Part shown: piece by piece, positions 10,561 to 48,684 of the stretch | Position numbering within the stretch: position 1 is the first letter of the stretch | How the letters are laid out: each line of letters begins with the position of its first letter | Origin: Alienimonas californiensis | GTDB lineage: Bacteria; Planctomycetota; Planctomycetia; Planctomycetales; Planctomycetaceae | Length of the DNA: 64,000 nt | Assembly (NCBI RefSeq): GCF_007743815.1 | Contig: NZ_CP036265.1 | Span: 3,366,823-3,430,822 of the forward strand | Reading direction: 5' to 3' | Position numbers and translations under genes: made by a program | The notes under the pieces: model-generated | Databases searched by the model: none | Seen by the model: only the letters and a program-made list of their open reading frames with translations | Told to the model about the DNA's origin: nothing

Positions 10561-10647
10561 CGTCGGTCCTCGTCGTGGCGGGGGAACGGGGGAATCGCGC
10601 CGGTCGATCGAACTGGACGATCGGCCGACGCGAAAGCCGTTCTATTC

Positions 10648-10664: not shown

Positions 10665-10757
10665 AAACGGTGGAAGGCGGGGAGTGCGGGTGGGGACGCC
10701 CCCGGGCGCGCCGCCGCCTGCCGCGAGACGCCGCCTGCCGTCGAGGCGGGCGGGCGT

Positions 10758-11072: not shown

Positions 11073-11130
11073 GGGCCGTGTTCAGCGGTGATATTCGAGG
11101 GCCCCGACGGGCGTACGGACGAATCCCATC

Positions 11131-11147
11131 GTACCTGGCGGGGGTAT
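11131..11147. promoter_or_regulatory. Copper (CsoR-type) operator, GTACCT-GGCGG-GGGTAT
   Basis: It has the same 6-5-6 spacing as the other sites, with one arm slightly degenerate. It lies between the divergent csoR (start 11072) and membrane-protein (start 11219) genes, so it could control both. Confidence 0.7.
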
Positions 11148-11218
11148 CACCGGCGAGGGGCGCCCGGTCCGTGCGGCGGCACTTGCGGAGCCGGAACGGA
11201 TCATTTCAAACTCCGCAC

Positions 11219-11548: not shown

Positions 11549-11843
11549 GGCCCCGTCGGAGGTGACTGGCTCTGGATCACAGTCGGCCGGCGGCGACCGG
11601 GGGGGCTCGCTACCGGGCCTGCAGATCCACGATAAACCGTTTCCATCTCGGCGGTCTCCTCCCGCTGCCCCTCATGACGGCTCGCGGCTTGTGGATCGAA
11701 ACGGTTCTGCACGCATGGCGCAGGCGGCGTACCCGCCGGGGTCGCCCGCGACGGCGGGGGACTCCGCCGCTCCTCCGTCATCGCGGTTACGCTGACGAGC
11801 GGCAGTCCCGCCGAACGGCGTTGACCGCCCCCCGGCCGCCCGT

Positions 11844-12359
11844 TCACTCCCGGCCGGCAACCGCTCGCTTGGTTGCCACGTCCCCGCGGGCGGACCGTCT
11901 CTTAGAGAGACTCCACCACGCGCAGGCCGTCGCGGCGAGGGGGATGACGATCATCTGTAGGACCGGCGTCACGCCGACTCGGAGGACCGGCGCCAGCGGC
12001 ATGGATCCGTAGGTCCATCGTTCCGCCACATACACGGCCCATAACTCAAAGCCGATCGCCATCAAGACGCCGGTGATCAGCGGGACCACCCAAGTGGCTG
12101 GGTGCGAATAGGCCGACCTCTCGGCGGCCCAACGGAGATCCCGGTGGATGACCGCCACGATCAGGTAAAAGGACAGCGTCGCAAACATATCGCCTGTCGC
12201 CGTGGCAAACAGACACATCTTGAAAGTCGCCCACGAGAGTCCGTCGGGGGTCTCGAACAGCGGCATCTGGGCGTTTTCCCAGAGCAGATGCAGCACGAAG
12301 CTTGAACCGAAATACCAGAGGATCGGCTTGGCGGCCGATGACGGAGTCGGGCCGGACAT
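11844..12359 (-). CDS. Integral membrane protein, uncharacterised family
   Basis: The product is 171 residues with four hydrophobic segments: YFGSSFVLHLLWENAQMPLF, a second around ATGDMFATLSFYLIVAVIH, a third VVPLITGVLMAIGFELWAVY and a fourth LQMIVIPLAATACAWW. The LLWENAQMPLF motif in the first segment is one I have seen in uncharacterised bacterial membrane proteins; no function is known to me. It sits between the Spy-like gene and the csoR region, on the same strand as the Spy-like gene but upstream of nothing obviously coupled. The roughly 295 bp before it (11549-11843) hold no convincing gene. Confidence 0.7.
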   Translation of the reverse strand: MSGPTPSSAAKPILWYFGSSFVLHLLWENAQMPLFETPDGLSWATFKMCLFATATGDMFATLSFYLIVAVIHRDLRWAAERSAYSHPATWVVPLITGVLMAIGFELWAVYVAERWTYGSMPLAPVLRVGVTPVLQMIVIPLAATACAWWSLSKRRSARGDVATKRAVAGRE

Positions 12360-12454
12360 GAGCGAGAGCCGGAGGAGGGATTCGGGGCCGCTTGAGCGAT
12401 GGGGCGGGAGCCCGGAGAGAAGATCAAGACGCCCGCCCCGTCGCCGAGCAGACT

Positions 12455-30146: not shown

Positions 30147-31088
30147 ATGAGACGTTTCGCGCTTCCCGCCGCCGCCCTGCTGCTGGCCCCGGCGCTCGCC
30201 GCCGCCCAGACCGCCCCCGGCCGCTCCGCCCACGACCACGCGGGGCACAATCACGCCGCACGCGCTCACGCCGCCACCGGCGCCGTCTGCGAAGAATGCG
30301 GCGCCCACGGCGGCGAGGTGACCGCGGTCGGTCACCTCCGCTGCGAAACCGTGCTGGGCGTCGGCGGCGTTCAGTTCTGGCTGACCGACGCCGAGGGTCG
30401 CCCCGTCCCCGCCCGCGGAGTCCGTGGGGCGGTGTCGTTGCAGGTGGCGGGAAACCCGAAAAGCTACCGCTACGACCTGTACCCCGCCGCCGGCGCGAAC
30501 GCCCCATCGAACCTGCTGGCCCTGCCGCTGGACCTGTCGGAGGCGGCGGGGCAGGAGGTCGCGGTCGCCGCCCGCCTCTCCGGCGTGCCGGGGGTCGGCT
30601 CGAACGTCACGACCGTCCGCGGCGCCGCCACGATCGGCGCTCCGCAAGCTGCGCCCCTCACGGCGGGGACGCCCGTTCGCGCGACGGACGGCGACGCCGC
30701 TCTGATCGCCGCTCAAAAGGATTGCCCCGTGATGGACGAGCCGCTGGGCTCGATGGGCGTGCCCTGGAAGATTCCGGTCGGCGACCGGGCGGTGTTCGTG
30801 TGCTGCAAGGGGTGCATCAAGAAGGTCGTCGCCGAACCGGCGAAATACGTCGCGATGTTGCCGCCCCCGCCGGCGACCCGCGCCACGGACGCCGACGCCG
30901 CCGCCATCGCCGCTCAGGCGACCTGTCCGGTGATGGACGAACCGCTGGGCTCGATGGGCGTGCCTTGGAAGGTGCCGGTCGCCGGCGGTACGGTCTTCGT
31001 TTGCTGCAAGGGGTGCATCAAACGGGTCCACGCCGAGCCGATGAAATACCTCGCCGCGACACAAACGGGCGACACGGCCCGCAACTGA
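30147..31088 (+). CDS. Secreted protein with tandem-duplicated Cys domain
   Basis: The product is 313 residues with a signal peptide (RRFALPAAALLLAPALAAAQ), a His-rich segment (HDHAGHNHAARAHAA), a middle beta-rich domain with CEECGAHGGEV, and two C-terminal repeats of about 55 residues. Each repeat reads CPVMDEPLGSMGVPWK, then VFVCCKGCIK, then AEPxKY. The repeats are near identical, pointing to recent duplication. The CPVM..CCKGC pattern is YHS-like and fits soft-metal binding. The ribosome-site region (AAAGGACTT, 30134-30142) and early codons resemble those of the lipoprotein gene at 23931. It has its own copper operator. Probably a periplasmic copper buffer; family not known to me. Confidence 0.78.
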   Translation: MRRFALPAAALLLAPALAAAQTAPGRSAHDHAGHNHAARAHAATGAVCEECGAHGGEVTAVGHLRCETVLGVGGVQFWLTDAEGRPVPARGVRGAVSLQVAGNPKSYRYDLYPAAGANAPSNLLALPLDLSEAAGQEVAVAARLSGVPGVGSNVTTVRGAATIGAPQAAPLTAGTPVRATDGDAALIAAQKDCPVMDEPLGSMGVPWKIPVGDRAVFVCCKGCIKKVVAEPAKYVAMLPPPPATRATDADAAAIAAQATCPVMDEPLGSMGVPWKVPVAGGTVFVCCKGCIKRVHAEPMKYLAATQTGDTARN

Positions 31089-32582: not shown

Positions 32583-34972
32583 ATCGCCAACATCCCGCTC
32601 CCGTCAACCTCCCGGAGGCCCAGTCGGTCGCGGTCGTACAGGCCGAGGGCGTCTTCGGGATCCTCCAGCACGAACCATTCCGTGGGTTCGGTGCGATTGC
32701 CGACCCGCAGTTCGACCGGGACCAGGTGCGGGGAGCGCTCGGCGGCGCCGCGGAAGATGCTCACCGCGTGCGGGGCGGCCCCCGAGGCCCAGTTGGTCAT
32801 CTGTTTGTACGGCACGCCGTTCTGCGTCGCCTCCCGCAGGCGGTCGTAGGTCGGCCGGTGTACGGGACGAGCACGCGAACAGTGTCGTCGCGGATTAGGC
32901 GGTAGAGTCGGCAGATCGCCTCGAAGTCCGAGGCGTTCAGGGCCTGTTCCCACTCCGCAGCGACCTCCGCCTTGCCGGTGAGGCCGTAGAACGCTTCGTA
33001 GTACGCGCGGATCGCGTCGGGATCGTGGATCAGGCGGACGGCGGCGTCCGCGTCGTACCGCTTTAGTTCCGACCGCGTGACGCTGACCGCCTGCCCGTAC
33101 CCCGGCGGGAACTGGGCTTTCCCAACCTCCTCCGGCTCGAACACGACGACCGGGCAGGGGGTCGGAATCCGCCCGCCGCGGTTGCGGCGGCCGGCGGCCT
33201 GGGCGACGGCCTCCAGCGGGGCGGTCGCGCGATAGGCGGCGGGGAAGTCCACGTCCACGCCGGCCTCGATGCACTGCGTGGCGATCAGCCGACAGGGCCG
33301 GCCGGTCCGTAGCCGGACGCGGACCTTCGCCAACACTCGCCGGCGGTGGGCGGGGCAGAGGTTCGTGGAGAGGCGCAGCAGACCGCGGCAGTCGGCGGGG
33401 TCGGTCAGCCGGTCCTCCAGCCGCTCCACGAGCCCTGCGGCGTGCCGTTTAAGGTTCATCACGCACAGAACCTGCCGCCGGTCGGGAGCGGCGAGTTCGT
33501 CGGCGAGGGCGTCCCAGGGCGTGGGCTCGGTCCGCCACGTCACCCGGGTGCGATTTGCGGCGACGGCGAAGGACTCGTCGCGGCGAGCGTGAATCTCCGT
33601 CGGTGTCCATCCGTCCCGGCAGAGGCGGGCCACGCGGTCGTGCAGGTGATCGAACGCCGGCTGGGGCGCGGTGGCGACGACCGCGGTGCAGCCGTACCGC
33701 TCCACCAAGCGGGAGACCGCCGCCAAGGTGACGACCGCCAACTCTGGCGGGAGGGTCTGGACCTCGTCGAGCAGCAGCACGCTGCCGGCCAGCCGGTGCA
33801 GTTTCCGGCAGGCGGCGGGGCGGTTGGCGAACAGCGATTCCAACGTCCGCACCGCAGTGGTCACAATCAGCGGGGCGTCCCAGTTTTCCGCCGGTAGCCG
33901 GGCGCGGCCCTCGGCGGGGTCGGTCGTTCCCTCCTTCGGAACGCGATGCGGGGCGAGGCTGTGGTCTCCGAGGACGTACTCATCGCCGAACGCCGGGGCG
34001 AAAACGCGGCGATACTCGTCGGCGGTTTGCTCAATGATCGACAGGAACGGGATCGTGCAGACGATCCGCCGCAGCGGGTTCGGGCCGTCCGCGTGGGCGG
34101 CGGCGTGCCGCAGGGCGAAGTCCAGCATCGCCAGCGTTTTGCCGGCCCCGGTCGGGGCGGTGAGCGTGTACAGCCCCCGAGCGCCGGCGGCGGCGGCGCG
34201 GCAGTCTTCGCTCAACCGGCGTCGCAGATCGCGGACCTCGGCCGTGGCGTCGGAACGCGATCGCACGGTCTTGTTAAGGAAGGCTTTCAGTTCCTCCACG
34301 GCGGCGGGGGCGTTCAGCGGCGGGCCGGCGAGGCGGTACCGGCGGGGGGCGGTCGCGTCGCCGTCGAAGTGGGCCTCGGTTTCGAGGAAGTCCGCGTCGA
34401 CCAACGCGGAGAACAGCATCCGCGTATCGAGCAGGCCCGCGACCGACCGGCCGGCGCGGCCTTCCCGCCACCGGCTCTCGGCGGACTTCGGCAGGGACGG
34501 AAACGCGAACCCGTCGGCGGCGAACCGACGGAGCAGGTCCTCGGGGGCGGTTTCGCCCAAAGCCTTCGCCTCCTTCTGCGCCCCGTCGGCCGCGGCCCTG
34601 ATCGGAGCCGGATTCGAGGCCCCCGGCTCCGGGCATTTCAATCCGACGTGGTGGCCGGCGACCGCGCAGCCGACGGCCTCCGCCAGGTTCGGCCAGGTTC
34701 CTCCGAGACCCGCCCACGCCCACTGCGCCCCGAAGGTCCAGTGGTCCACGCCGTCCGCCGTTCCCCGGATGCGATTTTGAAAGGCGGCGGAGTACTTGCC
34801 GAGGTCGTGCAGCAGGCCGGCCGCGCGCCTCCTCGGCCGCCCCGGACGGGGCCGCGAACCCTGCGGCGCGGTCGGCGACGTGGCGGACATGCTCATCCAG
34901 CCATTCCCACCGCCCCCCGCGGTTAGTGCTGTGGCCGTAGAAGACGCCCGGCACTGGGGCCGTTCGATTCAT
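32576..34972 (-). pseudogene. cas3: CRISPR-associated Cas3 (HD nuclease-helicase), two frameshifts
   Basis: Read across three frames, this is one Cas3. Frame 1 starts MNRTAPVPGVFYGHSTNRGG at 34972. Near 34825 the frame shifts and continues AAGLLHDLGKYSAAFQ..VDHW..AGHHVGL (HD nuclease), YTLTAPTGAGKTLAMLDFAL (Walker A), LLDEVQTLPPE (DExx box), and motif VI QAAGRRNRGGR. Near 32853 it shifts again to TYDRLREATQNGVPYKQMTN and ends GMLAIC, with the stop formed by the IS inverted repeat. The HD-then-helicase order fits type I-C-like or similar systems. No cascade genes, cas1/cas2 or repeat array are seen nearby, so this is an isolated, probably dead, locus. Confidence 0.85.
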
Positions 34973-35321
34973 CGTCTGGCTCTCCAAATCTGGGTCTTAC
35001 TGCGGCGGGGCGGCCGTTCCGCGTCACGTCGCCCGGTGCGAGCGCGTATGCCAGCAATCGACCCACCGGCCCGGGCAGCACCCTCACGGCGTGCTGCGCC
35101 CCGGCGGTGGCGTGATCGACCTGCGACGGCGTGACGAGGTGGTCCTGAAAGTCCCGCGAGTACTTGCCCAGATCGTGCCAACGCCCCGCCGCTTCGCCCC
35201 AATCGGCGGCCCCGTAGGAGTCGGCGAACCCCGCGGCCCGAGCGGCGACCGCGGCGAGGTGGTCGGAAAGCGGTTCCCAATCCGACTTCGTGCGGTCGTT
35301 GGTGCTGCGCGAAAAGTACAT
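34923..35321 (-). pseudogene. Truncated second Cas3 HD-domain fragment
   Basis: The frame starts MYFSRSTNDRTKSDWEPLSD and has a Cas3 HD-type domain: HLAAVAARAAGFADSYGAAD, WHDLGKYSRDFQDHL, QVDHATAGAQHA, LLAYALAPGDV. It lines up with the N-terminus of the neighbouring cas3 remnant but is a different sequence. After about 100 residues (near 35010) it ends abruptly in unrelated codons and runs into the start of that gene. It is either a rearranged duplicate of cas3 or the start of a second cas3 whose rest was deleted. Confidence 0.75.
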
Positions 35322-35750: not shown

Positions 35751-37436
35751 CTACGCTTCGATCCCCTGTCGATCAAGGCGAAGGGCGCGCTCCTCGGCCG
35801 CGGCGAGCCGGTCGGGGTCGGTGGGATAGCCGTACTGCTCCCCGAGTCGTGCGCAGGACTTGGCCAGGCGGACCAGCGGCGGACGGTCGTAGTGTCGAGC
35901 CGAGACGCCGGTGGGACGGTTGCCTTTCCAGAGTTCGCTCAGCCCGTGGTACTGGGGGTCGGGGTCGGCGTCCAGAAGCCCGCCGCCGCCACGGAACTGG
36001 CGGAGGCCCGAAGGCGTCGGCGTACCGGATGCGGCGAGCTTCGTCCCGACCCGACTGAGGGCGAGGCGGATTGCATCGAGACGAACGGGCTCCCGCCCGG
36101 GGCGCTCCTTCCACCGAACTGCGGGCAAGCCGTCGCGGGTGAGGAAGAGCCGATCCGAGTACGTGGGATCGGCGGGCTCCGGTCGGGCGTCCGCCCAAGC
36201 CCGGACCGCCACGACCGCGCAGTCCCAGAGCACCCACTGCACCACGGGGGCCTTCTCCCGGGCGTCGTGTTTGACTCGCTTTCGAGTGACGATACCGAGG
36301 CGGGGATCGAACTGGTCGATCCGCAGGTCCGCGATGTCCGCGGACCCGAACCCGCAATTCGCCGCGAGCAACAGTGCCGCCGCGGCCGGCGGCGCCGCCG
36401 CGTCGACGAGCCTGCGGAGCGCGGCGGGATCGACCGGGGTCGGGGCGGCGGGAGCCGACCGGATCGTCGCGGAGGCGAGGTTTCGCGGCAGCGTTTCCAG
36501 CAGCTCCCGCTCGTAGCACCACCGCACGAACGTCCGGGCCCGGTTCCAGGCGAGGCGGGCGGATTCCTGCGACCAGCGGCCGTCTGAGACCTGAGCGAGG
36601 AACTTCCCGCGCATTCGGTCGACCCACGCCGAGTCGATACCGGCGACTTCGTCTGCGCCGGCAAAGGCGACGAGCTCTCGGAGGCGCTGGGCGGCCCGCG
36701 CGCGATTCGACGGCTTGCTGCCCGCCGCCGCCATCCCCTCGAGGTAGCGTGCGACCGTCCCCGCGACTGTGCGGTCCCGCGGGGCCTGCGTCGCCCCGGA
36801 TCGACGTCGCCCGGCGTGCATCTCCCCGTCCCGCCGCAGCCAAGCCCGCGCCTCGTGGGCGACCGGGCCGCCTTCGAGGTTGAAAGCGATTGACGTTTCA
36901 CGCCGGTCGGCTCCCGGAGAATCAAGTTCAGGACGCTCCTGTCGGACTGCCTCGACCAGTCGACGAAGGTCCGGTCCTCCGGCGATTGAGCCCCACCCGT
37001 CCGGCGGCAGTTGTCCGTGTTCCGCTGCGGCTGCGATCTGACGCTGGGCCGACGCAGCCTCCGTATGGGCGGCCACGAGGTAGTTCTCCCACCCCGCTGC
37101 GTCCCGCTGATTTCCCTCGGCGTCGGAATATTCCTCCCCAGGCACCCGCCCCGTCCGCCGAACGGCGGCGAGCTCCATGTCGCACCACTCGAGCCGCAAG
37201 GCGATTCTTTCCTGAGCCCTCTCGAAGGCGGCCGCAACCTTCGGATCTGCCGGGCCGGCGGCGTCCAACCCGGCCCGCCACTCGCAAAACGCCGCGTAGG
37301 CCGCCCGCTCGGCCTCGCGATCCGACCGGCAGCGGCACCGGTCGGACTGCCAGAGGCGCCCCTTGTAGATCTTCCGCCAACGGCCTCCGCCGCCCGCTCT
37401 CGGGTTCCAGGTGAGTCGCGTTTTGTTCCTCGGCAT
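35751..37436 (-). CDS. Tyrosine recombinase/integrase, planctomycete type, atypical catalytic motifs
   Basis: The product is 561 residues. The N-terminal 200 residues are helical and basic; a SAM-like core-binding region (TVAGTVARYLEGMAAAGSKP, about residues 225-300) precedes the catalytic domain. The box I region reads LLLAANCGFGSADIADL where active enzymes usually have TGxRxxE, so the first catalytic Arg is replaced. Box II is SGLRQFRGGGG instead of LRHT, and the C-terminal region has ARHYDRP, which may supply His and Tyr. A NCGFG motif is, to my knowledge, usual in planctomycete integrase-like proteins, so the loss may be family-wide. The gene is divergent from the second integrase, with the tRNA fragment in between. 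Confidence 0.8.
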   Translation of the reverse strand: MPRNKTRLTWNPRAGGGGRWRKIYKGRLWQSDRCRCRSDREAERAAYAAFCEWRAGLDAAGPADPKVAAAFERAQERIALRLEWCDMELAAVRRTGRVPGEEYSDAEGNQRDAAGWENYLVAAHTEAASAQRQIAAAAEHGQLPPDGWGSIAGGPDLRRLVEAVRQERPELDSPGADRRETSIAFNLEGGPVAHEARAWLRRDGEMHAGRRRSGATQAPRDRTVAGTVARYLEGMAAAGSKPSNRARAAQRLRELVAFAGADEVAGIDSAWVDRMRGKFLAQVSDGRWSQESARLAWNRARTFVRWCYERELLETLPRNLASATIRSAPAAPTPVDPAALRRLVDAAAPPAAAALLLAANCGFGSADIADLRIDQFDPRLGIVTRKRVKHDAREKAPVVQWVLWDCAVVAVRAWADARPEPADPTYSDRLFLTRDGLPAVRWKERPGREPVRLDAIRLALSRVGTKLAASGTPTPSGLRQFRGGGGLLDADPDPQYHGLSELWKGNRPTGVSARHYDRPPLVRLAKSCARLGEQYGYPTDPDRLAAAEERALRLDRQGIEA

Positions 37437-37543
37437 GCCGGAGTGGCTGGGTACGATTTCTGGGTACGTTTTACCGCGAAGCGGGCGGAGAATCGTACCC
37501 AGGCGCCTCCTGGAATGTCTACTACGTAGGCGTCTCGCCCCCG

Positions 37544-37595
37544 GAGCGTCGGTCTACGGAACCGAAGGTTGCAGGTTCGAATCCTGCGGGGCGTA
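37544..37595 (+). other. 3' portion of tRNA-Arg(ACG), putative attachment site
   Basis: The anticodon arm is TCGGT-CTACGGA-ACCGA (anticodon ACG at 37556-37558), the variable loop AGGTT, the T arm GCAGG-TTCGAAT-CCTGC, the acceptor 3' strand GGGGCGT and discriminator A. The matching 5' acceptor (ACGCCCC) and a normal D arm are missing; a CGCCCC lies just upstream, so it may also be a tRNA with the D arm deleted. Such 3' tRNA fragments mark integration sites of elements using tyrosine recombinases. It lies 123 bp before the integrase gene at 37718. An intact tRNA-Arg(ACG) is not seen in the window. Confidence 0.75.
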
Positions 37596-37671
37596 GTTGT
37601 TGTAAGTCCCGCCGAAGACGCCTGTTGCGTCTACCAGCCTCCCGGGGCTGAGCGGCCTCACCCGCCCGCGG

Positions 37672-37691
37672 AAGTGGTAGTCCTACCACTT
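37672..37691. promoter_or_regulatory. Perfect 20-bp palindrome before integrase gene
   Basis: AAGTGGTAG-TC-CTACCACTT has 9-bp perfect arms and a 2-bp spacer, 26 bp before the integrase ATG at 37718. It could be an operator for the integrase or an arm-type recombinase site. It shares the GTAG/CTAC core with the palindrome before the second csoR-like gene, possibly by chance. Confidence 0.6.
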
Positions 37692-37717
37692 TTGCGAGCC
37701 GGAAAGGCCCGCTCCCG

Positions 37718-39034
37718 ATGCCCCGCCGCCCCTCCAAGCCACCGTCGTACCGGCTGCACAAGCCCTCCGGCCAGGCCCGCGTGATCCTCGCGGGCAAGCA
37801 CCACTACCTCGGTGCCTTCGGGGCGCCGGAGTCGAAGGAGGCCTACGCCCGGCTGATCGCCGAGCGGTTTCTCGCCCCCGGCCCCGCCGCCGACTGTTCT
37901 AATGCCCCTGACACCCCTGACAGCGGGGTCGCGACCGGGGCGGCGTCAGGGGTGTCAGGGGGTGTTTCGCAGTCGCCGGTCCCGCGGCGGCGGAGCGTGA
38001 ACGACCTGATGGTCGCCTACCTCGACCACGCCGAGGGGTACTACGCCCGTGACGGCGAGCCGACGCAGGAGCTGACGGACGTGAAGGCGTCGCTGAAGCC
38101 GCTCCGACTGCTCTACGGCCGCACGCCGGCCGACGAGTTCGGCCCCAAGAAGTTGAAGGCGGTGCGGGACCACATGGTCGCGGTGCAGGGCCTGTCGCGG
38201 AAGGTGACGAACGCCCGCGTCAATCGGATCCGCCGGTTCTTCAAGTGGTGCGCCAGCGAGGAGTTGGTCCCCTCCTCCGTCTTCCACGGCCTGCAGTCGG
38301 TGGACGGACTGCGGATGGGGCGGACCGCCGCCCGCGAGACCGCCCCGGTCAAGCCGGTCCCCGACGCCGACGTCGAGGCGACGCTGCCGTTCCTCTCCCC
38401 GCCGGTCGCCGCGATGGTGAAGGTGCAGCGGCTAACCGGGATGCGGCCGGGCGAGGTGGTGCAGATGAAGCCGGGCGACGTCGACCGCAACGGCGAGGTG
38501 TGGGTGTACCGCCCGGAGTGCCACAAGAACGAATGGCGGGGGCAGGAGCGGACGGTCCCGCTCGGTCCGAAAGCGCAGGCGGTCTTCGCCCCGTTCCTCG
38601 ACGGCCGGCCCGACGACAAGCCGCTGTTCTCGCCGAAGGAGGCGGAACAGTGGCGGTACGCGGAGAGCCCGCCGTACGCCGGCCGGGAGCGCGCCACGGA
38701 GCGGTACCCGAGCGAGACGCGCCGCCTCGCCGCCGCCAAGGCAGCCCGCCGCAAGCAGAAGCGGAAGCCGGAGCGGAAGGCCCGGGACCACTACGACCGC
38801 GACAGCTACCGCCGGGCGGTCACGTACGGGATCGAGAAAGCGGCGAGGGCGGGCGTGGCGATTGACAGCTGGAGCCCCGCCCGGCTCCGTCACGCGAAGG
38901 CGACGGAAGTGAGGGCCGCTGCCGGCTTGGAGGCCGCCCAGGCCGCCCTCGGCCACAAGCGGGCGGACGTGACGCAGATCTACGCCGAGCGGAACTTGTC
39001 CGCGGCGGTGGAACTGGCGAAGGCGAGCGGATAG
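37718..39034 (+). CDS. int: Tyrosine recombinase (site-specific integrase)
   Basis: The product is 438 residues. The N-terminus has an arm-binding-like region (YRLHKPSGQARVILAGKHHY), then a linker, a SAM-like core-binding domain (VNDLMVAYLDHAEGYYARDG, about residues 92-190) and the catalytic domain. Catalytic residues seen: Arg243 in LTGMRPGEVVQMK, Lys in CHKNEWRGQERTVPLG, Arg/His in WSPARLRHAKATEV, His in AALGHKRADVTQ and Tyr in IYAERN. All main residues are present except that the first His of HxLRH is Ala, as is common in related planctomycete enzymes. The linker is coded by a 17-bp inverted repeat. It sits next to the tRNA-Arg fragment and is probably the integrase of the element to its right. 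Confidence 0.93.
   Translation: MPRRPSKPPSYRLHKPSGQARVILAGKHHYLGAFGAPESKEAYARLIAERFLAPGPAADCSNAPDTPDSGVATGAASGVSGGVSQSPVPRRRSVNDLMVAYLDHAEGYYARDGEPTQELTDVKASLKPLRLLYGRTPADEFGPKKLKAVRDHMVAVQGLSRKVTNARVNRIRRFFKWCASEELVPSSVFHGLQSVDGLRMGRTAARETAPVKPVPDADVEATLPFLSPPVAAMVKVQRLTGMRPGEVVQMKPGDVDRNGEVWVYRPECHKNEWRGQERTVPLGPKAQAVFAPFLDGRPDDKPLFSPKEAEQWRYAESPPYAGRERATERYPSETRRLAAAKAARRKQKRKPERKARDHYDRDSYRRAVTYGIEKAARAGVAIDSWSPARLRHAKATEVRAAAGLEAAQAALGHKRADVTQIYAERNLSAAVELAKASG
37905..37961. repeat. 17-bp inverted repeat inside the integrase gene
   Basis: CCCCTGACACCCCTGAC (37905-37921) is perfectly complementary to GTCAGGGGTGTCAGGGG (37945-37961), with 23 bp between. It codes the low-complexity linker of the integrase. 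The same 17-mer, with small changes, recurs at 46299-46317 and 46570-46587. Confidence 0.85.
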
Positions 39035-39070: not shown

Positions 39071-40438
39071 GTGCCCACGCCCGCCGAAATTGCCGAAGCC
39101 GACTTCGCGAACCTGGCACCGGGGACCGTCGCGCGACTGATCCCGGAGCCCCGTCCCCCGCAAGACCTTTTCAAGTACCCGCCCGACCTGCGGTGGGAAC
39201 TGGTCCGCCGACACCCCGTCTACCAGTGGGGTTGGGCGAGGGCGAAGCGAGAGCTGGAGCGGGACGATTTCGGCCCCTGGCCGGATCAAGAGGCCGACGA
39301 GCGGCTGGCCGACTGGTCCGCCTTGGTGGCCCTCGGCCGGATCGGGTGGGACGGCGACGTGCTCGGCCCCCCGGTCAGTCCGGCGCACCAAGGTTTTGAG
39401 ATCGCCGAAGTTCAGGACAACCGCGGGGACGCCAGATCGTTCCCGCATTGGGGCCAGATTCTTCAAACGGCTCTATTTCAACTCAGTGCTCCCGACCGCC
39501 TGCACGCCGGCCTCGCGTTCATCAATTCTGCCCTCGGGGAGAACATGTCCGGCATTCCCGGGGCAATGCGTCTGCTCGACGAGCGCAGCTCCCGGCCGGG
39601 CAGCACGCTCGGGCGTGAATTGAGCAACACGTTCGTCGCCGTACCGGCGGGCGTGGTGCCGGCGGCGGCGGCGAACCAAGTGAAGGTCGCCCACGAGATT
39701 CTGCGGGAACGTCTTGGCTTCAACACTGTACCGCGGGTGAGGGAGGATAAACTAGATTCGCAGCTGGAAGTGTGGGACCTTCACGGCGGCTTCGCCCACG
39801 GCGGTAGGTCTATCGACGGCGACGGAAAAGGTTTGCCAGACGAGAGCTTGAGTCGCTACAGCGTGGGCTACATCCCGCCGTCGCGGAACGGTTGGGCGAG
39901 AAGGAGCAGACGGTCCGCAGCCGTTACGAGGCGGCGTTCCTCGCTGTCATCGGGTTCGTCTACACGTTCGAGCAGTGGGAGAATCTGTTCGTCCGCCCGC
40001 TGATGTGCATCCCGGCTGAAGATGCGCCGGTGGGCTTTCACGAAGGCCTCATGGAAAAATGGGATGAGGAACGAGAGGCCCGACTCCGGGCGACCGGCAG
40101 CGGTGTTGAGCGACGGACAGTTGCCGTGGAGTGGGTCGGCGAAGGGGTCGCGAGCGTGGAGAATCGACGGGTTGCGGAACGGGCGCCAGGTGAGCATGAC
40201 CAGCGGGAGCCCGCGGAGGTCACGCAAAGCGTTTTAGAGGAGACACGGCGGAGACTAAGCCAACTGGAGGAGGCCGCCTGCGACAAGGACCGGTAAGAAA
40301 TCGTCGACAGCTTTGCGGGACCGGACGGGGAGTCACCCCCGGTCGAGAAGGCGACGGCGGGGTTGCGGAAATTGTTAGCTGCTTTGTCGGAAAGAACTGC
40401 GGCGGCGTCAGGCCCGGCGTCGACTGCCGAGAAATAAG
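39071..40438 (+). pseudogene. Element-borne gene of unknown function, frameshift plus nonsense codon
   Basis: The first part (from a GTG at 39071; MPTPAEIAEADFANLAPGTV) reads to about residue 270, then near 39885 the sense-looking frame changes to AVAERLGEKEQTVRSRYEAA and FVYTFEQWENLF. That frame ends at TAA 40294-40296 (EEAACDKDR), yet in the same phase continues EIVDSFAGPDGESPPVEKAT to GPASTAEK and a stop at 40436. So one frameshift and one in-frame stop separate three coherent pieces. Near residue 37 it has YPPDLRWELVRRHPVYQWGW, which weakly recalls regulator-like domains of integrative elements. Function unknown. Confidence 0.55.
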
Positions 40439-40467
40439 CGGGCGGCTTATCTCGGGGTGTGCAGGGG
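40429..40467 (+). repeat. 39-bp direct repeat, copy 1, with internal hairpin
   Basis: It begins GAGAAATAAGCGGGCGGCTT and ends GTGTGCAGGGG, and contains ATAAGC-GGGCG-GCTTAT. It overlaps the stop codon of the preceding gene remnant. Copy 2 lies 560 bp downstream with two substitutions. Confidence 0.85.
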
Positions 40468-41063
40468 GACGGCATCCGTCGTTCTCGCGGTCCCCGCACA
40501 TCGTCCCGAACGGGGCGACGCGATCCGCGGCGCAACCGAAACCGCCGACCGCTACCTGAGGCCCTCGATTTCTCCGTCGTCGTACTCAACGCCCTGTCGA
40601 CCGCCGCCGCGAAGACCGCGGCGTTCGAGGACTCTGTGGCGGTCCCGGGCGGCGTCGTACCGCACCGGTGCGGGTTGTCCTGCCGCGGCGAACTCCGCGG
40701 CCGGTATCCGCACTGGAATCTTGGCCGGCCCGCCGGCGACGGGCGGATCGTCCGCCTGCTGACGTCCCGCGAAAATCATGCGCCGGTTGAAGAGCATTTC
40801 GGGCAGGCGAACGGACCTTTCACAGGTTTGGCGTCGACCTGAACGACAGCCAACGGGCCCGTGCGCCCCGCCTCCCCGACCTGGGCGGCGGGGCGTTTTC
40901 GTTCAACCGACCGACATCGTTCGGGCCACGGGTGAAACACCCGCTCCTCAGAAAGATGCGTCGCCGGAGGCGGGACTCCGAACCGTTCGAGAAATAAGCG
41001 GCCGCCTTATCTCGGGGTGTGCAGGGGTGAGCACCTCCTTTTATTCTCGCGGCCCTCGCTCCC
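40439..41063. other. Intergenic stretch bounded by direct repeats
   Basis: About 600 bp without a convincing gene. Open frames of 81 residues (minus, 40552-40797) and 127 residues (plus, 40459-40842) overlap each other and have no motif. Both ends carry the 39-bp repeat; the second copy is 36 bp before the DUF1580 gene. The region may be a duplicated regulatory leader with the gene between the copies lost. Confidence 0.4.
40989..41027 (+). repeat. 39-bp direct repeat, copy 2, before the DUF1580 gene
   Basis: It is identical to copy 1 except for two G-to-C changes in the hairpin loop region (GCGGCCGCC instead of GCGGGCGGC). It ends 36 bp before ATG 41064, so it may carry the promoter or operator of the DUF1580-primase-polymerase module. 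Confidence 0.85.
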
Positions 41064-41330
41064 ATGCCCCTGCCCGAAAACCTCGTCCCCCTCACCAAGC
41101 TCGCGAAGAGTTTAGGCGTCCACCTGGCGACTTGCCACCGGTGGCGCCAGCGCGGCGTGAAGGGGGTGCGGTTGGACTGCGTGCGGGTCGGCGGGCGGTG
41201 GTTCGTTACCGAGGACGCGGCGGCCGCGTTCCTCGCCGCCCTCAACGGCGGCGCGGACGTGACCCCCGTCGGCGGCGACGGCGGCCGTGAGGACGCGTTG
41301 GAGGCGGTGCTCACCTCCCGCGGCGTGTGA
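41064..41330 (+). CDS. DUF1580-family helix-turn-helix protein (excisionase/regulator-like)
   Basis: The product is 88 residues. It has the MerR/excisionase-like fold expected from LVPLTKLAKSLGVHLATCHR, WRQRGVKGVRLDCVRVGGRW and FVTEDAAAAFLAAL. This is the DUF1580 pattern known from planctomycete mobile elements. It likely binds DNA near the 39-bp repeat just upstream, as a directionality factor or repressor. It lies about 100 bp before the primase-helicase gene on the same strand. The C-terminal 25 residues are Gly/Ala-rich and not conserved-looking. Confidence 0.82.
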   Translation: MPLPENLVPLTKLAKSLGVHLATCHRWRQRGVKGVRLDCVRVGGRWFVTEDAAAAFLAALNGGADVTPVGGDGGREDALEAVLTSRGV

Positions 41331-41427
41331 ACGCCGCGTTCCGCAACCTCCTCTAGATGAAACACCCCGCCGCCCGCCTCGGCCTTGCACGGCCGGGGGT
41401 GGGCGAACGGCGGGGACGCACGACACC

Positions 41428-43392
41428 GTGGGCATAACCCAACAAAACGTCCCTGGGCAGGGCCCGGGCGGCGACGACCCGCTCTTGCCGCACCACCGCA
41501 AGGAGCTGGAAGAAGGCGCCGGTCTGACCGCCGGCACGATTAGAGAAGCGCGCATCCGCTCGGCGGGGCCGGTCGAAGCCACCGAGCGGCTCGGTTGGGC
41601 GAACCCGAACCCGAAGCTGGGGAACGCCATGCTGCTGCCGCTAGACGACACACCGGACGGTCCGGTGCAGGCGAAGTTCGATAGGCCCCTGACGGGCGAG
41701 AACGGCAAACCTCGCAAGTACGAGACCACCCGCGGCCACGCCGCCGACGCTTATATCCCGCCCGACGCCCGAGACGGGGTGCTGACGACGAAGGCCCCGG
41801 TCGTCATCACCGAGGGGATCAAAAAGGCGCTGAAGGCAGTCCAGGAGGGAATTCCGACAATCGCCCTGCTGGGCCTCTGGATGTTCAAAGTGAAGGGCGA
41901 AGAGCGCCTCGTTCCGGGCCTTGAACAGGTCGACTGGGACGGCCGGGAAGTCACGATCGTCTTCGACAGCGACGGGCGCACCAACCGCTCCGTTCGGCAG
42001 GCCGCCGTCTCGCTGGCGGAACTGCTGAAGGCTGCCGGGGCGGAGGTGAAAGTGCTGTTCCTGCCGCCGGGCCCGAACGGCAAGAAGGTCGGGATAGACG
42101 ACTTCCTGCTGGCCCACCCGGTCGAGGAACTGGAGGCGCTGATCGCCGACGCCGGCCCGCCGGAGTCGATCGAGGACGCCGGCCGCCGGAAGGCCGGACT
42201 CGTCGACCCGGAGGAACTGGGCAGCGTGATCCTCGTAAGCCGCGCGGTCGACGGAGTGCCCGGTGTCTGGGTGCGCGACGGGGAGATCTATCAGTGGGAT
42301 AAGAACCGGTTCGTCGACGTCTCGGACGACGAGTTCAAGCTGCGGTCCGTCACGACCCTGAAGCCGCACTTCGTCGAGGTCCGTCCCAAGGTCGTGTCCG
42401 GGGCGGTGATGCACGCGAAGGCCGACGCACTGATGCCCAGAGGCGTGGGCGAGGGGGACTGGATCGTCGGCGGTCCGCCGGACGGGTGGGCCGACCCGGC
42501 CGAAGTCTTCCCCGCCGCCAATGGGCTGCTGCACCTGCCGTTCTTCGCGACACGAGCACCGTGCCTAATCGATCACACGCCCCGCCGGTTCACCCGCTGG
42601 GTCAGTCCCGTGCCGTACGACCCGACGGCCCCGCGGCCGGAGACCTGGCTGCGGTTCCTGCACGACCAACTGTTCCCCGGCCGACCCGAACCGGTCCGGC
42701 TGCTCCGGCAGTTCGCTGGCGGTCTACTGATGCAGCAAGCGGTGTTTCAAAAGATGCTGATGATGATCGGCCCGGGGCGGAGCGGGAAGGGGACGATCAT
42801 GTGGGTGTTTGAGTCGCTGCTGGGGCCGGAGATGCGTTCCGCGGTGCCGCTGAAAAAGCTCGGCGGCCAGTTCGACGGGGCCGACCTCCTGGATAAACGG
42901 CTGCTGTCGATCGGCGACCTCCGCCTGCCGACGGACCGGCGGTCCCGGGAAGCGCCGATCGAGATGCTGCTGTCGCTCTCCGGCGGGGACCCGATCACGT
43001 TCGACCGGAAATATAAAGAGCCGGTCACCGCCCGCCCGCCGGTGCGGATCGTGATCGCGAGCAACGAGTTGCCGGTCCTTCCGGACCCCAGCGGCGTGAT
43101 CGCCAGCCGGTTCGTCGGCGTCAAGTTCACGGATTCCTTCGATGGCGTGGAGGACCCGCGCCTGAAGGACAAGCTGCGGCCGGAACTCCCGGCCATTCTG
43201 AACTGGGCGCTGGCCGGGTATCTCGACCTGATCGAGACCGGCCGGCTCGTCGAGCCGGCGGGGTCGGACGGGTTGCGGGCGGAACTGGAAGCGCTGGCCA
43301 GCCCAGTGAAGGTCTTCGTCAAAGACGCCTGCGTGCTCGGCGCGAACGAGGCAGTGCCCGCGGCGAAGCTGCGGGAGCTATTCAGCCAATGA
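41428..43392 (+). CDS. DUF3854/TOPRIM-type primase with SF3 (P4/D5-like) helicase, nonsense-truncated
   Basis: The product is 654 residues from GTG 41428 (VGITQQNVPGQGPGG); the open frame further upstream overlaps the DUF1580 gene and is Arg/Pro-rich. A TOPRIM-like DUF3854 domain shows VVITEGIKKALKAVQEG, EVTIVFDSDGR and KVGIDDFLL (about residues 120-235). An SF3 helicase follows: MMIGPGRSGKGTIMWVFESL (Walker A), LLSIGDLRLP (Walker B region) and PVRIVIASNELPVL. It starts element replication by priming and unwinding. The frame stops at TGA 43390-43392 after LRELFSQ, but the same phase continues SADRGQPTLDEGEFGRQLKA to a stop at 43536, the expected winged-helix tail. A W-to-stop change is likely. 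Confidence 0.9.
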   Translation: MGITQQNVPGQGPGGDDPLLPHHRKELEEGAGLTAGTIREARIRSAGPVEATERLGWANPNPKLGNAMLLPLDDTPDGPVQAKFDRPLTGENGKPRKYETTRGHAADAYIPPDARDGVLTTKAPVVITEGIKKALKAVQEGIPTIALLGLWMFKVKGEERLVPGLEQVDWDGREVTIVFDSDGRTNRSVRQAAVSLAELLKAAGAEVKVLFLPPGPNGKKVGIDDFLLAHPVEELEALIADAGPPESIEDAGRRKAGLVDPEELGSVILVSRAVDGVPGVWVRDGEIYQWDKNRFVDVSDDEFKLRSVTTLKPHFVEVRPKVVSGAVMHAKADALMPRGVGEGDWIVGGPPDGWADPAEVFPAANGLLHLPFFATRAPCLIDHTPRRFTRWVSPVPYDPTAPRPETWLRFLHDQLFPGRPEPVRLLRQFAGGLLMQQAVFQKMLMMIGPGRSGKGTIMWVFESLLGPEMRSAVPLKKLGGQFDGADLLDKRLLSIGDLRLPTDRRSREAPIEMLLSLSGGDPITFDRKYKEPVTARPPVRIVIASNELPVLPDPSGVIASRFVGVKFTDSFDGVEDPRLKDKLRPELPAILNWALAGYLDLIETGRLVEPAGSDGLRAELEALASPVKVFVKDACVLGANEAVPAAKLRELFSQ

Positions 43393-43637
43393 TCCGCGGA
43401 CCGCGGCCAGCCGACCCTCGACGAAGGCGAGTTTGGCCGACAGCTCAAAGCCGCGTTCCCGCGCGTGATCGGCAAGCAGAAACGGACTGGGGGCGACAAG
43501 CGGCTCCTGCACTACTTCGGCGTCGGCCTGCCCTGAATGCCGGGGCGGGGCCGCGTGTGGTACTCGCCCGCATTCATTTAATTCATTTTCCACCGGCCTA
43601 TGATCTCCGCCTCAATGACAAACCACGCCCTTCCCCC

Positions 43638-43976
43638 CTGGTACCGCGGTCGGTCGCCCCCCTACCCGATTGGGCCATCGAACTCCCCAATCCCCAGTCC
43701 GACGACGGCGATGTCGGATCGGCCCCCACAGCCCTCGTCCGTGGCTGGAAGCTGCACAACGACACCATCGTGTGCCGCGCCTGCTGCCCGCAGCCCGCCG
43801 GCGCCGTTCCCGTCACCCTCGTCGGCGAGGGTGACAATCTGTGCTGGGAAGAGTCCGCCGCCGAGGCAGCCGAGGCCACGCCCGTCGACGGCGGAGCGCC
43901 GGCCGACGGCGGCCCTGACATGGATGACGCTGACGCCGAGGAATCCGCCGCCGACGATCAGTTCGGAGAACTTTAA
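43638..43976 (+). CDS. Small acidic protein with CxxC motif, start uncertain
   Basis: The sense-looking part reads SVAPLPDWAIELPNPQSDDG, LVRGWKLHNDTIVCRACCPQ, then an acidic Ala/Asp/Glu tail ending DDQFGEL. There is no ATG, GTG or TTG directly before it in frame; the nearest ATG (43615, MTNHALPPWYRGR) is one frame off, with a C6 run between, so a frameshift is possible. The start given is only the point where the frame looks coding. The stop overlaps the polymerase start by one base (TAATG), indicating coupling. It is a small partner of the replication module; function unknown. Confidence 0.5.
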   Translation: MVPRSVAPLPDWAIELPNPQSDDGDVGSAPTALVRGWKLHNDTIVCRACCPQPAGAVPVTLVGEGDNLCWEESAAEAAEATPVDGGAPADGGPDMDDADAEESAADDQFGEL

Positions 43977-46222
43977 TGGGCAGGCTCCTCACCGCCGGCG
44001 CGCTGACCGGCCGGACCGAAATCGACGTCGCGGTCGGCTCGCAGCGGACGACGTTCCGCGAATGGACACCGGGCGACGATCCGTTTGCCGAGACGTTCGC
44101 GTTCGATTCCGAGACCACGCGGATCCGCGACGACCTGCCCGAGCGGGTGCCGGACTACGTGCTCGGCGTCGCCAGCGACGGCGACCGCGGCGTGTTCGTC
44201 TCCCGGAAGAACCTGCCGGCGTTCTGGGCGGCGCATGCGCACTGCGCCTGGGCGTTCCACCACGCCGCCTTCGACCTCGCCGTCGTCCAGAAGGCGCTGG
44301 GCGTGCGGGGCGACGTGTATGCGCTCGTCGAGGACGGCCGGGCGTGGGACACCCTGATCCTCGCCAAGCAGCTGGGCTTGGCCACGCGGGGCACGACGGG
44401 CGGGGCGTTCTCGCTCGACGCCTGCGCCGCGGAGTTCCTCCGCGTCGACCTCCCGAAGACCGTGACCGACGCCGCCGGCAACGACGTCCGCACCGGGTTC
44501 GGCCGGTTCCTCAACAAACCGGTCGCCGCGATCCCGCCCGACTACCTGCGGTACGCCGCCGGCGACGCGGTCGCGACCTGGCTGCTGTTCGGCGTCCTGA
44601 AGGCCCGCATACGGGCCGTGCGGAAGGACCGGCGGGAAACGTTCGGCGAGACCGGCGACGACCGCCTCGCGGCCGCCTGGCGCGAATACGGCCCGCTCAC
44701 CCACCACACCCAGCTGAAGAGCACCGTGATGTGCGACGTGATGCGCCGCACCGGGCTGGGCGTGGACGCCGATCGCGCCGCCGCGGCGCGGGACGAACTC
44801 GGCGACCGCATCGACCAGATCCGCGCCGAACTCGCCGGGGCGACGTTCGGCGATCCGCCGGTCCCGTTCGTGGTGGAGGGACCGGGCAGCGGGGCGTCGC
44901 TGCAGGCCCTCCTGAGCGACGTGCACGCCCGCCGGCCGGACCTGCCGAAGCCGAAGACCGACTCCGGCGCGTGGGCGGCGGACGAGTCCGCGCTGACGGC
45001 GTTGGCGGACGAGGAGCCGGTCTTGGCGACGCTGCTGGAATTGAAGCGGCTCGTGAAATTGCGGAACACCTACTTCGTCCCCCTGTCGACCTCGGGCGGG
45101 CAGGTGCACGCCCAGTTCCGGCCGCTCCTGAACACCGGGCGGATGAGCTGCTCGAAGCCGAACCTGCAGAACCTCCCCCGCGCCGCGGACGGGTTGCCGT
45201 CGGTACGAGCCTGTTTGGTCCCGAAACCCGGACACGTGCTCTTGGCCGTCGACTACGCCCAGATCGAGTTGTGCGTGCTAGCGGCGGTTCTGCAGGACCA
45301 GCTGCGGCTCGGCGGATCGCTGGCGGCGCTGGTGGACGACCCCGACGTCGACCTGCACAAGCGGATCGCCGCGACCGTGTTGAACAAAACGGACGGCGAG
45401 GTCGAGCCCCACGAGCGGCAGAGCGCCAAAGCCGTCAGCTTCGGCCGCCCCGGCGGGATGGGGGCGGCGTCGCTGCAACGACAGGCGAAGGAGGCCTACG
45501 GCGTGGATCTGACCGACGAGGAGGTCCAGGCGCGGATCGACGCCTACGAGGCGCTGGTGCCGGAACTGAAGCGGTACCTGACGGACGCGGCCGACGTCGG
45601 GCAGCGGCTCGCGGCGCGGTTGAACCTCACTCCCGCCGCCTACGCCGCGTCGAAGGGAGATTACGACAACGACGACGGTCCCGCCGGTTGGCTCGGCGGG
45701 ATGCTGTTGAAGGTCTTGCGCGTCCCGAAGCCCGTGACGCGATCGGGTCGACCGTACGCGCCGGAGGAGCTGTCGTACCTGTGGGACGCCGCCTTCTCGC
45801 TGGCCGGCGACCTTGGGGCGGAACGCACCCAGCAAATGCGGACGCGGAAATCCTCGAAGAAACTCGCGAGCTCCGTCGAGCGTTTGGTCGGCCGGAACGC
45901 CTGCACCCTCACCGGCCGGTTCCGCTCCAACTGCCTGTTCACCGAGAGCCGCAACACGCTCTTCCAGGGCGTCGCCGCCGACGGCCTGATCCTCGCCCTG
46001 TGGGACCTCTGGCGGGCCGGCTACAGGCCCGTGCTGGCGATCCACGACGAGATCGTCCTGGAGGTGGCGGAGAAGGACCTGACGAAGGCGCTGGTCGACG
46101 ACGTGACGGCGCGGATGGAGGCGGCGATGGGGCGGGTGATCCCGGGCGTGAAGGTGACAGCGGAGCCGACGGCATTGCGGTCGCTCGATAAGGCCAACGA
46201 GGCGGAACTGCCGCGGGAGTGA
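43976..46222 (+). CDS. Family A DNA polymerase with 3'-5' exonuclease domain
   Basis: The product is 748 residues. The N-terminal part is a DEDD-type exonuclease: FAFDSETTRIRDDLPE, HAAFDLAVVQKAL, and YLRYAAGDAVATW (about residues 42-205). The polymerase domain shows RMSCSKPNLQNLPR, motif A LLAVDYAQIELC (Asp426), motif B ERQSAKAVSFGRPGGMG and motif C LAIHDEIVLEV (His690-Asp691). No 5' nuclease domain is present. Together this resembles phage and element PolA-type replicases rather than the host repair enzyme. It follows the primase-helicase and the small acidic protein in one run, so the element probably replicates itself after excision. Confidence 0.94.
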   Translation: MGRLLTAGALTGRTEIDVAVGSQRTTFREWTPGDDPFAETFAFDSETTRIRDDLPERVPDYVLGVASDGDRGVFVSRKNLPAFWAAHAHCAWAFHHAAFDLAVVQKALGVRGDVYALVEDGRAWDTLILAKQLGLATRGTTGGAFSLDACAAEFLRVDLPKTVTDAAGNDVRTGFGRFLNKPVAAIPPDYLRYAAGDAVATWLLFGVLKARIRAVRKDRRETFGETGDDRLAAAWREYGPLTHHTQLKSTVMCDVMRRTGLGVDADRAAAARDELGDRIDQIRAELAGATFGDPPVPFVVEGPGSGASLQALLSDVHARRPDLPKPKTDSGAWAADESALTALADEEPVLATLLELKRLVKLRNTYFVPLSTSGGQVHAQFRPLLNTGRMSCSKPNLQNLPRAADGLPSVRACLVPKPGHVLLAVDYAQIELCVLAAVLQDQLRLGGSLAALVDDPDVDLHKRIAATVLNKTDGEVEPHERQSAKAVSFGRPGGMGAASLQRQAKEAYGVDLTDEEVQARIDAYEALVPELKRYLTDAADVGQRLAARLNLTPAAYAASKGDYDNDDGPAGWLGGMLLKVLRVPKPVTRSGRPYAPEELSYLWDAAFSLAGDLGAERTQQMRTRKSSKKLASSVERLVGRNACTLTGRFRSNCLFTESRNTLFQGVAADGLILALWDLWRAGYRPVLAIHDEIVLEVAEKDLTKALVDDVTARMEAAMGRVIPGVKVTAEPTALRSLDKANEAELPRE

Positions 46223-46317: not shown

Positions 46318-46569
46318 GCCTTCAGCAGTCTGACGGCGTGTACAGACCTGCGGGGCTCGACCTGCCTCGGATCCGCGGGCCCCAACGGCCATTGGCGTTC
46401 GCGTGGATCGAATTTGTGCGTCGAGACGTGCCGGCGCCCGGGGCTCCCGGGGGCCGCTCCCTCGGAGCGGCCGGTCGGACGGCTGGGGCGCCGCCCGCGA
46501 GCCTTTCGGGTCGCCGCGGTCGCGTTGCGGTCGGCGCCAGCCGCCGCGGGGTCCAGAACTCAGTTGTGT

Positions 46570-46587
46570 CCCTGACACCCCTGACAC
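46570..46587 (-). repeat. Inverted copy of the GTCAGGGGTGTCAGGGG repeat
   Basis: CCCTGACACCCCTGACAC is the reverse complement of the repeat family. With the copy at 46299 it brackets about 270 bp without a convincing gene (open frames there are Arg/Gly-rich shadows). Confidence 0.75.
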
Positions 46588-47293: not shown

Positions 47294-47632
47294 AGCGCCC
47301 GCCCCGGCTCGTTCGTTCTTTGCTCGGGGGCCAGGCCCCGCTGGAGGCGAACACGGACCGTCGGCGTCGACCGCGGGAGCCGGTCGATTCTCCGACCGGC
47401 GGAGGGCCGCAACCGGTCGCCGCCCCCGCACACGAACGTCGGCAAGCCAAAGACGGCCCAGGAGACGCCGCAGGATGCCCTCGCTGCCCGAGACGGCCTC
47501 CGCCCCGTGTGAGACCGTCGCAGGGACGCACGCGAGAGCGCCGGCGGGCCGGAACCGGGCGGACGGATCGAACTGCCAGTCGACGGGCTACGCTGGGCCC
47601 GGTTTCCCGCCCCCCGCCGGACGGCCCCCGCC

Positions 47633-48684
47633 GTGTTCTCCCGCAACGTCGCCCTCGTTCTCGTTCTCGTTCTGTTCGCGGCGTGCGGCTGTCGGCCGAA
47701 GCCCGAGGCGGACTCGCCGGCGGTCCCCGAGGAGTTCCCCTCCGACCCGAACCGCTTCCCCGGCCACCCCGACGGCTTCGGGCCGGATCCGTCGGCGCCC
47801 GCAGCGTCCGTCCCGACCGACCGATCCGCCGACGGCGACGTGGTGGTGGCGACCTGGAACAGCGGCCCCCTGTTCTCCGTCGCCGACGTCCAAGCTCGGA
47901 CCGACGACTTCGCCGCCCTCGCCGCCGACGTGCGGCCGGACGTGCTGCTGTTGGACGAAGTCACTTCGCTGGCGGTCGCCCGAACGGTCGCCGAGGCGCT
48001 GGGCCTGCCGACCGGCCCAGAGCACGTGGTGGTGAGCGACTTCAATCCGAACGACGAGGCCCAATACAGCAGCCTGGAGGTGGCGATTCTCTCCCGCCTC
48101 CCGCTGGCGAACGCGGTGGTGTTCGACCGCGGCCCTGAGGGCGGCGCCCGGTCCGGCTAGCCAGAGGAGCGCCGGCTGGAGCGGGTCGACCTGGACGGGA
48201 TCGCGGACATGGGCGTGGGCCGCGGGTGCCTCGCCGCAGACGTACCCGCTTTGGGCCTCGTGATGTTCGTGACGCACCTGAAGTCTTCCTCCGGCCGATC
48301 GGGCGAGTAGGACCGAGACAACGCCCGCAAGCGGGAACTGGTGGCCGCGGCGAGGGCCCGGCACGTCGCCGAGCGGCTCGCGGCCGATCCGACCCTCACC
48401 GCGGTCGTCGGCGGGACTTCAACGTGGGGGAGACGGACGCCGGCAAGAACGGCGTCGTCCTCGCCGACGACCGGACCGACGGCTACGACGACACCCACGC
48501 CCTGATGACGCGGAGGCTGTTGGACGGACTGCGGCTGCGGAGCCTCACCCGGGAGAAGGGCAACACCTACGACGACACCCCCGGCGACGGCGTCTTCCCG
48601 TACCCGGACGTGGGTGTCATCGACATGCTGTACGTCGGCGGGGCGGGGCGGAGGCCGAGCGGTTTGGCGAGGGCCGCCGGGCCG
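47633..48684 (+). pseudogene. Endonuclease/exonuclease/phosphatase-family lipoprotein, two stops and one frameshift
   Basis: It starts MFSRNVALVLVLVLFAACGC, a lipoprotein signal, then a Pro-rich linker and the EEP fold: VVVATWNSGPLFSVADVQAR, DVLLLDEVTS, EVAILSRLPLANAVVF. The first frame ends at TAG 48158-48160 but continues in phase (ERRLERVDLDGIADMGVGRG, GLVMFVTHLKSSSGRSGE) to a second TAG at 48308-48310, then further to VVGG near 48413 where one base is missing. The next frame gives DFNVGETDAGKNGVVLADDR and VGVIDMLYVGG. Catalytic strings THLKSS and GDFN are still recognisable. The gene is dead unless these are sequence errors. The stretch 47294-47632 before it holds nothing convincing. Confidence 0.75.

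Follow-up and report, generated by a model that had tools for sequence, protein, structure and literature searches.

The DNA analysed (the window, 64,000 nucleotides) is part of the Alienimonas californiensis genome, which is a single contig of 5.475 Mb. An earlier note on this DNA had described a module of four genes, and both the genes and their order were confirmed: DUF1580, a TOPRIM/SF3 primase-helicase, a small acidic ORF and a family A polymerase. The borders it gave hold for the replication half, but the unit is larger, its left part upstream having been missed. The element begins at 37.54 kb, 3.5 kb upstream of that module, and its order is a tRNA-Arg(ACG) 3′ fragment, tyrosine integrase, orfX, a pair of 27-bp palindromes, DUF1580, primase-helicase, small protein and polymerase, with the genes co-oriented. 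The arrangement is not due to chance, as the module recurs in Alienimonas chondri, the closest named relative found, which belongs to the same genus, and as a second copy (copy 2) in the A. californiensis genome. In A. chondri the same gene order likewise lies beside an integrase, at tRNA-Arg(CCG).

The element is attached at a tRNA 3′ end. The tRNA-Arg(ACG) 3′ fragment that forms its left attachment site (37535..37600, plus strand; Rfam tRNA, 34.5 bits) is 98% identical over 57 nt (tRNA 3′ part at 37,544-37,600) to an intact tRNA-Arg(ACG) located 80 kb upstream (C1:3324291-3324365), and ARAGORN detected no intact tRNA in the 64-kb window. At a distance of 61 kb downstream of the window fragment there is a third tRNA-Arg fragment, with the remnant of an integrase after it. 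From this arrangement, which is typical of elements stacked in series at a tRNA 3′ end, we infer that the window unit would be an older insertion displaced from the intact tRNA. The 80-kb region from the intact tRNA-Arg(ACG) to the window fragment (C1:3324291-3404422, window 1-37544) has its own integrase (window 35751-37436, minus strand) and also holds metal-efflux genes and, beside the tRNA, an IetAS defence pair (L016:4996-8646). Within the window, this region contains a Cas3 gene (32797-35321, minus strand; PADLOC Cas3c, E=1e-153), after which comes another HD-like N-terminal piece, with no further cas gene recognised close by in the gene list, and two 176-nt direct repeats in a histidine-rich protein gene (30678-31054; 81% identical, 201 nt from start to start).

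Between the tRNA fragment and the integrase lies a left-end segment (37601..37717, plus strand) that carries the inverted repeat AAGTGGTAG..CTACCACTT; it is about 90% identical in A. chondri, where its counterpart adjoins a different tRNA, Arg(CCG). The tyrosine integrase (37718..39034, plus strand; Pfam Phage_integrase, E=1e-12) starts 118 nt from the tRNA fragment, is 76% identical to its A. chondri counterpart (L019:3680-4987) and had no match among 50,697 phage records. The integrase gene contains an inverted pair of the 17-mer CCCCTGACACCCCTGAC (37905..37961), and the same pair is present in the A. chondri integrase. Repeat matching placed a further copy with one mismatch just 3′ of the polymerase (46569..46585, plus strand), and in A. 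chondri and copy 2 the 17-mer likewise directly follows the polymerase. Only 11 exact copies exist in the genome (5.5 Mb), compared with none for a reversed-pattern control, and 10 of them are near the two module copies (in the window and at C1:4111039-4152157), several 17-mer copies being in-frame linkers within coding sequence. The 17-mer was rejected as an element border or origin because copies also occur inside genes of an unrelated four-copy cluster.

Downstream of the integrase, orfX (39071..40380, plus strand) is a single frame of 470 aa in A. chondri; the window homology is in two parts (39071-39877 and 39880-40380), showing that the window gene is frameshifted at about 39,877. No Pfam or PHROG match was found for orfX, and its fold model was of no use (pLDDT 39). 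Two 40-nt repeats, each with a 27-bp palindrome and with 0 expected in shuffles, follow at 40428..40467 and 40988..41027, the palindromes being spaced 560 nt apart; the second lies directly 5′ of DUF1580 and is conserved in A. chondri (L019:6994-7035). The intergenic DNA at 40690..41063 is 95-98% identical in A. chondri. Along the element, identity between the two species is mosaic: it reaches 95-99% across 40,700-41,300, a stretch of which about 370 nt are intergenic, compared with about 50-85% for integrase and orfX. Both the intergenic block and the palindromes are candidates for control or origin DNA. An RNA explanation of the block was discarded, as no Rfam family scored above cut-off there and the fold z-score was -0.48.

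The DUF1580 gene (41064..41330, plus strand; Pfam E=7e-9) encodes a predicted excisionase-like winged-helix protein. It matched the excisionase family phrog_66 (E=5e-4) and scored 19.2 bits with HTH_17, below the Pfam cut-off of 27. In fold, its AlphaFold model (pLDDT 71) comes close to those of Pukovnik Xis and RdfS; the probability is near 1, but the E-values are weak, at about 0.05-0.1. Fold, weak profile matches and gene neighbourhood suggest that DUF1580 may be an excisionase or regulator. DUF1580 (PF07618) is a Pfam domain with no assigned function, and no paper mentioning it was found in the open-access literature.

The primase-helicase (41428..43536, plus strand), recognised by profile matches to TOPRIM (DUF3854) and the SF3 helicase (DUF5906), most likely starts near 41428 rather than at the GTG at 41287. 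The TOPRIM glutamate, DxD, Walker A (GPGRSGKGT) and sensor motif ASNELP are all present. The gene is intact in A. chondri; in the window it carries an in-frame TGA (43390-43392) where A. chondri has TGG, and homology runs on to 43533. The small protein had been reported as 195 aa, but roughly its first 80 residues are out-of-frame sequence of the primase C-terminus. The actual product has about 115 aa and an acidic tail (43629..43976, start approximate, plus strand; pI 4.05; 64% identical to A. chondri), and its gene does overlap the polymerase start, as had been stated, by 1 nt. The CxxC that the earlier note took as a mark of its role did not hold up, being present in A. chondri and absent from copy 2, and the idea of a CxxC zinc protein was dropped for this reason. 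From the acidic tail with its terminal hydrophobic residue, one might guess at a single-strand-binding or processivity partner. The family A DNA polymerase (43976..46222, plus strand; Pfam DNA_pol_A, E=6e-44; phrog_17, E=1e-80) has a 3′-5′ exonuclease. Its exonuclease and polymerase catalytic residues are intact, D44/E46, D100, Y193/D197, D426/E431, R481/K485 and H690/D691/E692 being invariant in six homologues.

In A. chondri (L019), the homology sets in within tRNA-Arg(CCG) and extends across integrase, orfX, the two palindromic repeats, DUF1580, primase, small protein and polymerase. A DUF3775-like gene, orfY, lies 1.1 kb after the polymerase, and the contig ends about 120 nt beyond it; the right end was not located from the contig with the orthologue of the gene adjoining tRNA-Arg(CCG). 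The two species are 81% identical in the polymerase and 83% in the primase. Homology ends at the polymerase stop codon, indicating that orfY and the right end have been lost from the window copy or displaced. No tRNA-end direct repeat closing the element was found within the window; 61 kb separate the window fragment from the one that follows, and ordinary metabolic genes are numerous in between, which weighs against the reading preferred below. The claim that the copy is intact thus fails on the orfX frameshift, the primase TGA and the lack of a near right end, and this copy is probably no longer able to run a full cycle. Copy 2, at C1:4.11 Mb, consists of orfX, primase, small protein and polymerase, followed by orfY, a truncated parA and a parB; it is 67% identical to the window in the polymerase and 37% in the primase. 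It has no adjacent integrase or DUF1580, which also weighs against that reading. A tmRNA gene lies about 37 kb from copy 2, beside its island (L140 16301-19140, C1:4152301-4155140), with a same-family integrase remnant adjoining. A gene for an endonuclease/exonuclease/phosphatase-like lipoprotein is repeated, whole or in part, in the vicinity of the two module copies and at other places in the island (window 47374-48681; L013 1630-4319; L017 2471-3600; L014 2050-2209).

Between A. californiensis and A. chondri, dS was 0.07 for DUF1580, 0.25 for the main part of the primase and 0.34 for the polymerase, compared with 0.42-1.0 for chromosomal genes, and dN/dS was below 0.5 for all module genes. 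Recent exchange together with constraint would fit these values and the mosaic identity better than vertical descent. The distribution is patchy, a close polymerase being present in 4 of 392 genomes. Alignment scans with both module copies returned only one close relative in genomes and, in viral contigs, distant polymerases or one weak match. Three other planctomycetes have more distant primase-polymerase pairs or polymerases; one of these distant loci has a small gene and an integrase at its end, and another adjoins an Hma defence system and lies 12-14 kb from an integrase.

The search for DUF1580 covered first 21 relatives and then 292 genomes of the phylum; integrases were called with a profile built from those of this analysis. 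The domain was present in 42 of the 292 phylum genomes and in none of 14 control genomes. In 21 loci from the phylum scan, selected only for the size of their contig, a same-strand integrase lay upstream of DUF1580 in 14, and in all 14 this integrase was immediately preceded by an intact tRNA. Of seven more loci, selected in part for their integrase, six showed a tRNA. The tRNAs used by the family comprise Ala, Arg, Asn, Asp, Gln, Gly, Leu, Lys, Met, Pro, Trp and Val isoacceptors. On the downstream side, 12 elements end in an exact repeat of 22-52 nt of the tRNA 3′ end, 11 of them measuring 7.7-15.1 kb and one 35.7 kb. The gene after DUF1580 is usually of replication type and exchangeable between elements: a DUF3854 or D5 primase, DUF3987, a Zn-ribbon/TOPRIM primase, a CHC2 zinc-finger protein, a DnaB-like helicase, a RepC-like or other initiator, or a topoisomerase-like gene. 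Three elements carry type I restriction-modification. An 11.0-kb Int-DUF1580 element (L088, G024:C1:4317001-4332000, 1298-12371), which runs from tRNA-Gln(TTG) to a 48-nt repeat, has genes for a head/protease fusion and a tape-measure protein and is reminiscent of a satellite that forms capsids, or of a stripped prophage, and a 15-kb element (L127) has a tape-measure-like protein. No complete prophage was found among the 12 repeat-bounded elements in the PHROG families listed (25 of 60); the situation that the earlier note had set against its own reading, in which the module always sits within complete prophages, was thus looked for and not encountered. These data suggest that the family is apparently an undescribed, phylum-wide group of compact tRNA-inserting elements. 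In open-access text, no paper was found that joins planctomycetes with phage satellites. The window element shares the family's layout, with a related integrase after a tRNA fragment, a same-strand DUF1580 and a replication gene directly after it; since this copy has decayed, it is filed as a degraded relative and not as an intact family member. A cluster of genes, among them those for an AAA ATPase and a DUF2997 protein, occurs in four copies within one genome (L014 13764-18910, L016 13375-19754, L140 9800-15797 and L142 6559-12656), and a similar set is present in the Int-DUF1580 locus L086.

Taken together, the window probably holds an integrative element that targets tRNA genes, in a copy that is decaying, from a planctomycete family with the core Int - (x) - DUF1580 - replication gene. 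This is because a tRNA-Arg 3′ fragment adjoins the integrase and the intact tRNA lies elsewhere, an intact copy sits at another tRNA-Arg in A. chondri, the module genes show mosaic exchange and selection, the family combines integrase, tRNA, tRNA-end repeats and a replication gene after DUF1580, and DUF1580 has a fold like Xis/RdfS, to which the lesions are added. The claim of an integrative element with its own primase-helicase and exonuclease-proficient PolA is accordingly upheld by the tRNA-Arg fragment with its integrase, the conserved catalytic residues, the intact A. chondri copy at another tRNA and the repeat-delimited family. The element is possibly phage-satellite-like. In this narrower form of the explanation, the family would be PICI/P4/PICMI-like parasites packaged by helpers, of which the window copy is a dead one, and we hold this to be a serious possibility, somewhat short of an even chance. 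The delimited relatives fall mostly at 7.7-15.1 kb, the range of P4-like satellites (PMC8628076), the set of integrase, small HTH protein and DUF5906/DUF3987 primase resembles PICMI (PMC10803314), and the restriction-modification cargo of three elements and the head-protease and tape-measure genes of two relatives point the same way. However, neither a helper phage nor a cos/pac site nor a gene for capsid size was identified, P4 psu, delta, sid and epsilon are absent from the Pfam matches of the module (sid has no Pfam model), and the integrase has no match in phage records. The earlier wording, satellite-like or autonomously replicating, is therefore backed by the size of the relatives and the absence of complete prophages among them, but not by any helper or packaging signal.

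Loss of structural genes from an ordinary temperate prophage could also leave such a locus, as the primase and PolA have phage homologues and two relatives carry tail or head genes. This is improbable, given that, in the families listed, no full set of structural genes showed up in any of the 12 repeat-bounded relatives, that no named structural PHROG at E<=1e-5 was found for the 42 genes from the window att to the att fragment that follows, and that the compact layout, its att repeats intact, is encountered again at many tRNAs. A self-replicating integrative plasmid or mobilizable element, moved by the conjugation of another element, is a better candidate but still rather unlikely: plasmids often carry P4-family primases, a planctomycete one among them, and a truncated parA and a parB lie 5-7 kb from copy 2, but parAB are missing from the neighbourhood of both the window module and the A. 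chondri module, and no relaxase or conjugation gene was recognised in the module by Pfam (the 61-kb interval was checked by eye only). That one genome keeps two copies and that the module is under purifying selection would agree with replication or repair genes that the host has domesticated, as opposed to a mobile element; the tRNA attachment, the integrase, the use of another tRNA in the sister species, the patchy distribution and the lesions make this very improbable.

In an intact copy, as the anatomy shows, the integrase most likely inserts the element into the 3′ end of a tRNA-Arg gene, restoring the tRNA. DUF1580, as an AlpA/Xis-like winged helix, may control excision and probably also its own promoter via the upstream palindromes. 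Judging from the enzyme families, after excision the TOPRIM/SF3 protein would open an origin close by and prime it, the conserved 370-bp segment being one possibility, and the exonuclease-proficient PolA with its acidic partner would then copy the excised circle. Transfer between cells appears not to be encoded and would need a helper phage, a conjugative element or uptake. On a more tentative level, DUF1580 could mark an unnamed, phylum-wide family of planctomycete phage satellites, which integrate at tRNAs, combine an excisionase-like DUF1580 with an exchangeable replication gene and in some cases carry head or tail parts, with an Alienimonas branch that has its own polymerase; we regard this as conceivable but on balance doubtful. 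If true, the Alienimonas variant may copy itself without the host replicative polymerase, which raises the question of why a small element brings a family A polymerase. The Int-DUF1580 core with tRNA-end repeats is a simple marker with which mobile elements can be found, bounded and tested across the phylum, some of them with defence systems riding on them, and a possible role is offered for a domain of unknown function.

Among known systems, phage replication modules provide the closest named families of the two large enzymes (phrog_6088 primase and phrog_17 polymerase), but identity to phage records is about 25-40% and no structural genes lie beside the window enzymes. The phage-inducible chromosomal minimalist islands (PICMI) of Vibrionaceae (PMC10803314) are likewise small elements with a tyrosine integrase, a small HTH protein (needed for excision in PICMI), a DUF5906-type primase and defence cargo, and without capsid-remodelling genes. 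Of the PICMI gene set, the window element has the integrase and DUF5906, an HTH_17 score of 19.2 against 27 bits, and no DUF3987. PICMI differ in their site downstream of fis, whereas the Alienimonas element lies at a tRNA 3′ end (tRNA-Arg), in having AlpA (PF05930/PF12728) instead of DUF1580, and in having DUF3987 instead of the DUF3854 TOPRIM, although the relative L125 does have DUF3987; the Alienimonas element also has a family A polymerase, and no helper was identified for it. P4-like satellites (PMC8628076) share with it the integrase, HTH regulator, D5/alpha-kind primase-helicase, a size of about 10 kb, and tandem and degenerate copies. The Alienimonas element differs from them in its own polymerase, its phylum and the absence of recognised psu, sid, delta and epsilon (psu, delta and epsilon had no Pfam match among the module proteins). 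Because the P4 marker genes and the PICMI site fail, and a helper is only hypothetical, the element is filed as neither P4 nor PICMI. What these two satellite groups have in common with it is a kit of integrase, small HTH protein and primase-helicase within about 6-15 kb (PMC10803314, PMC8628076).
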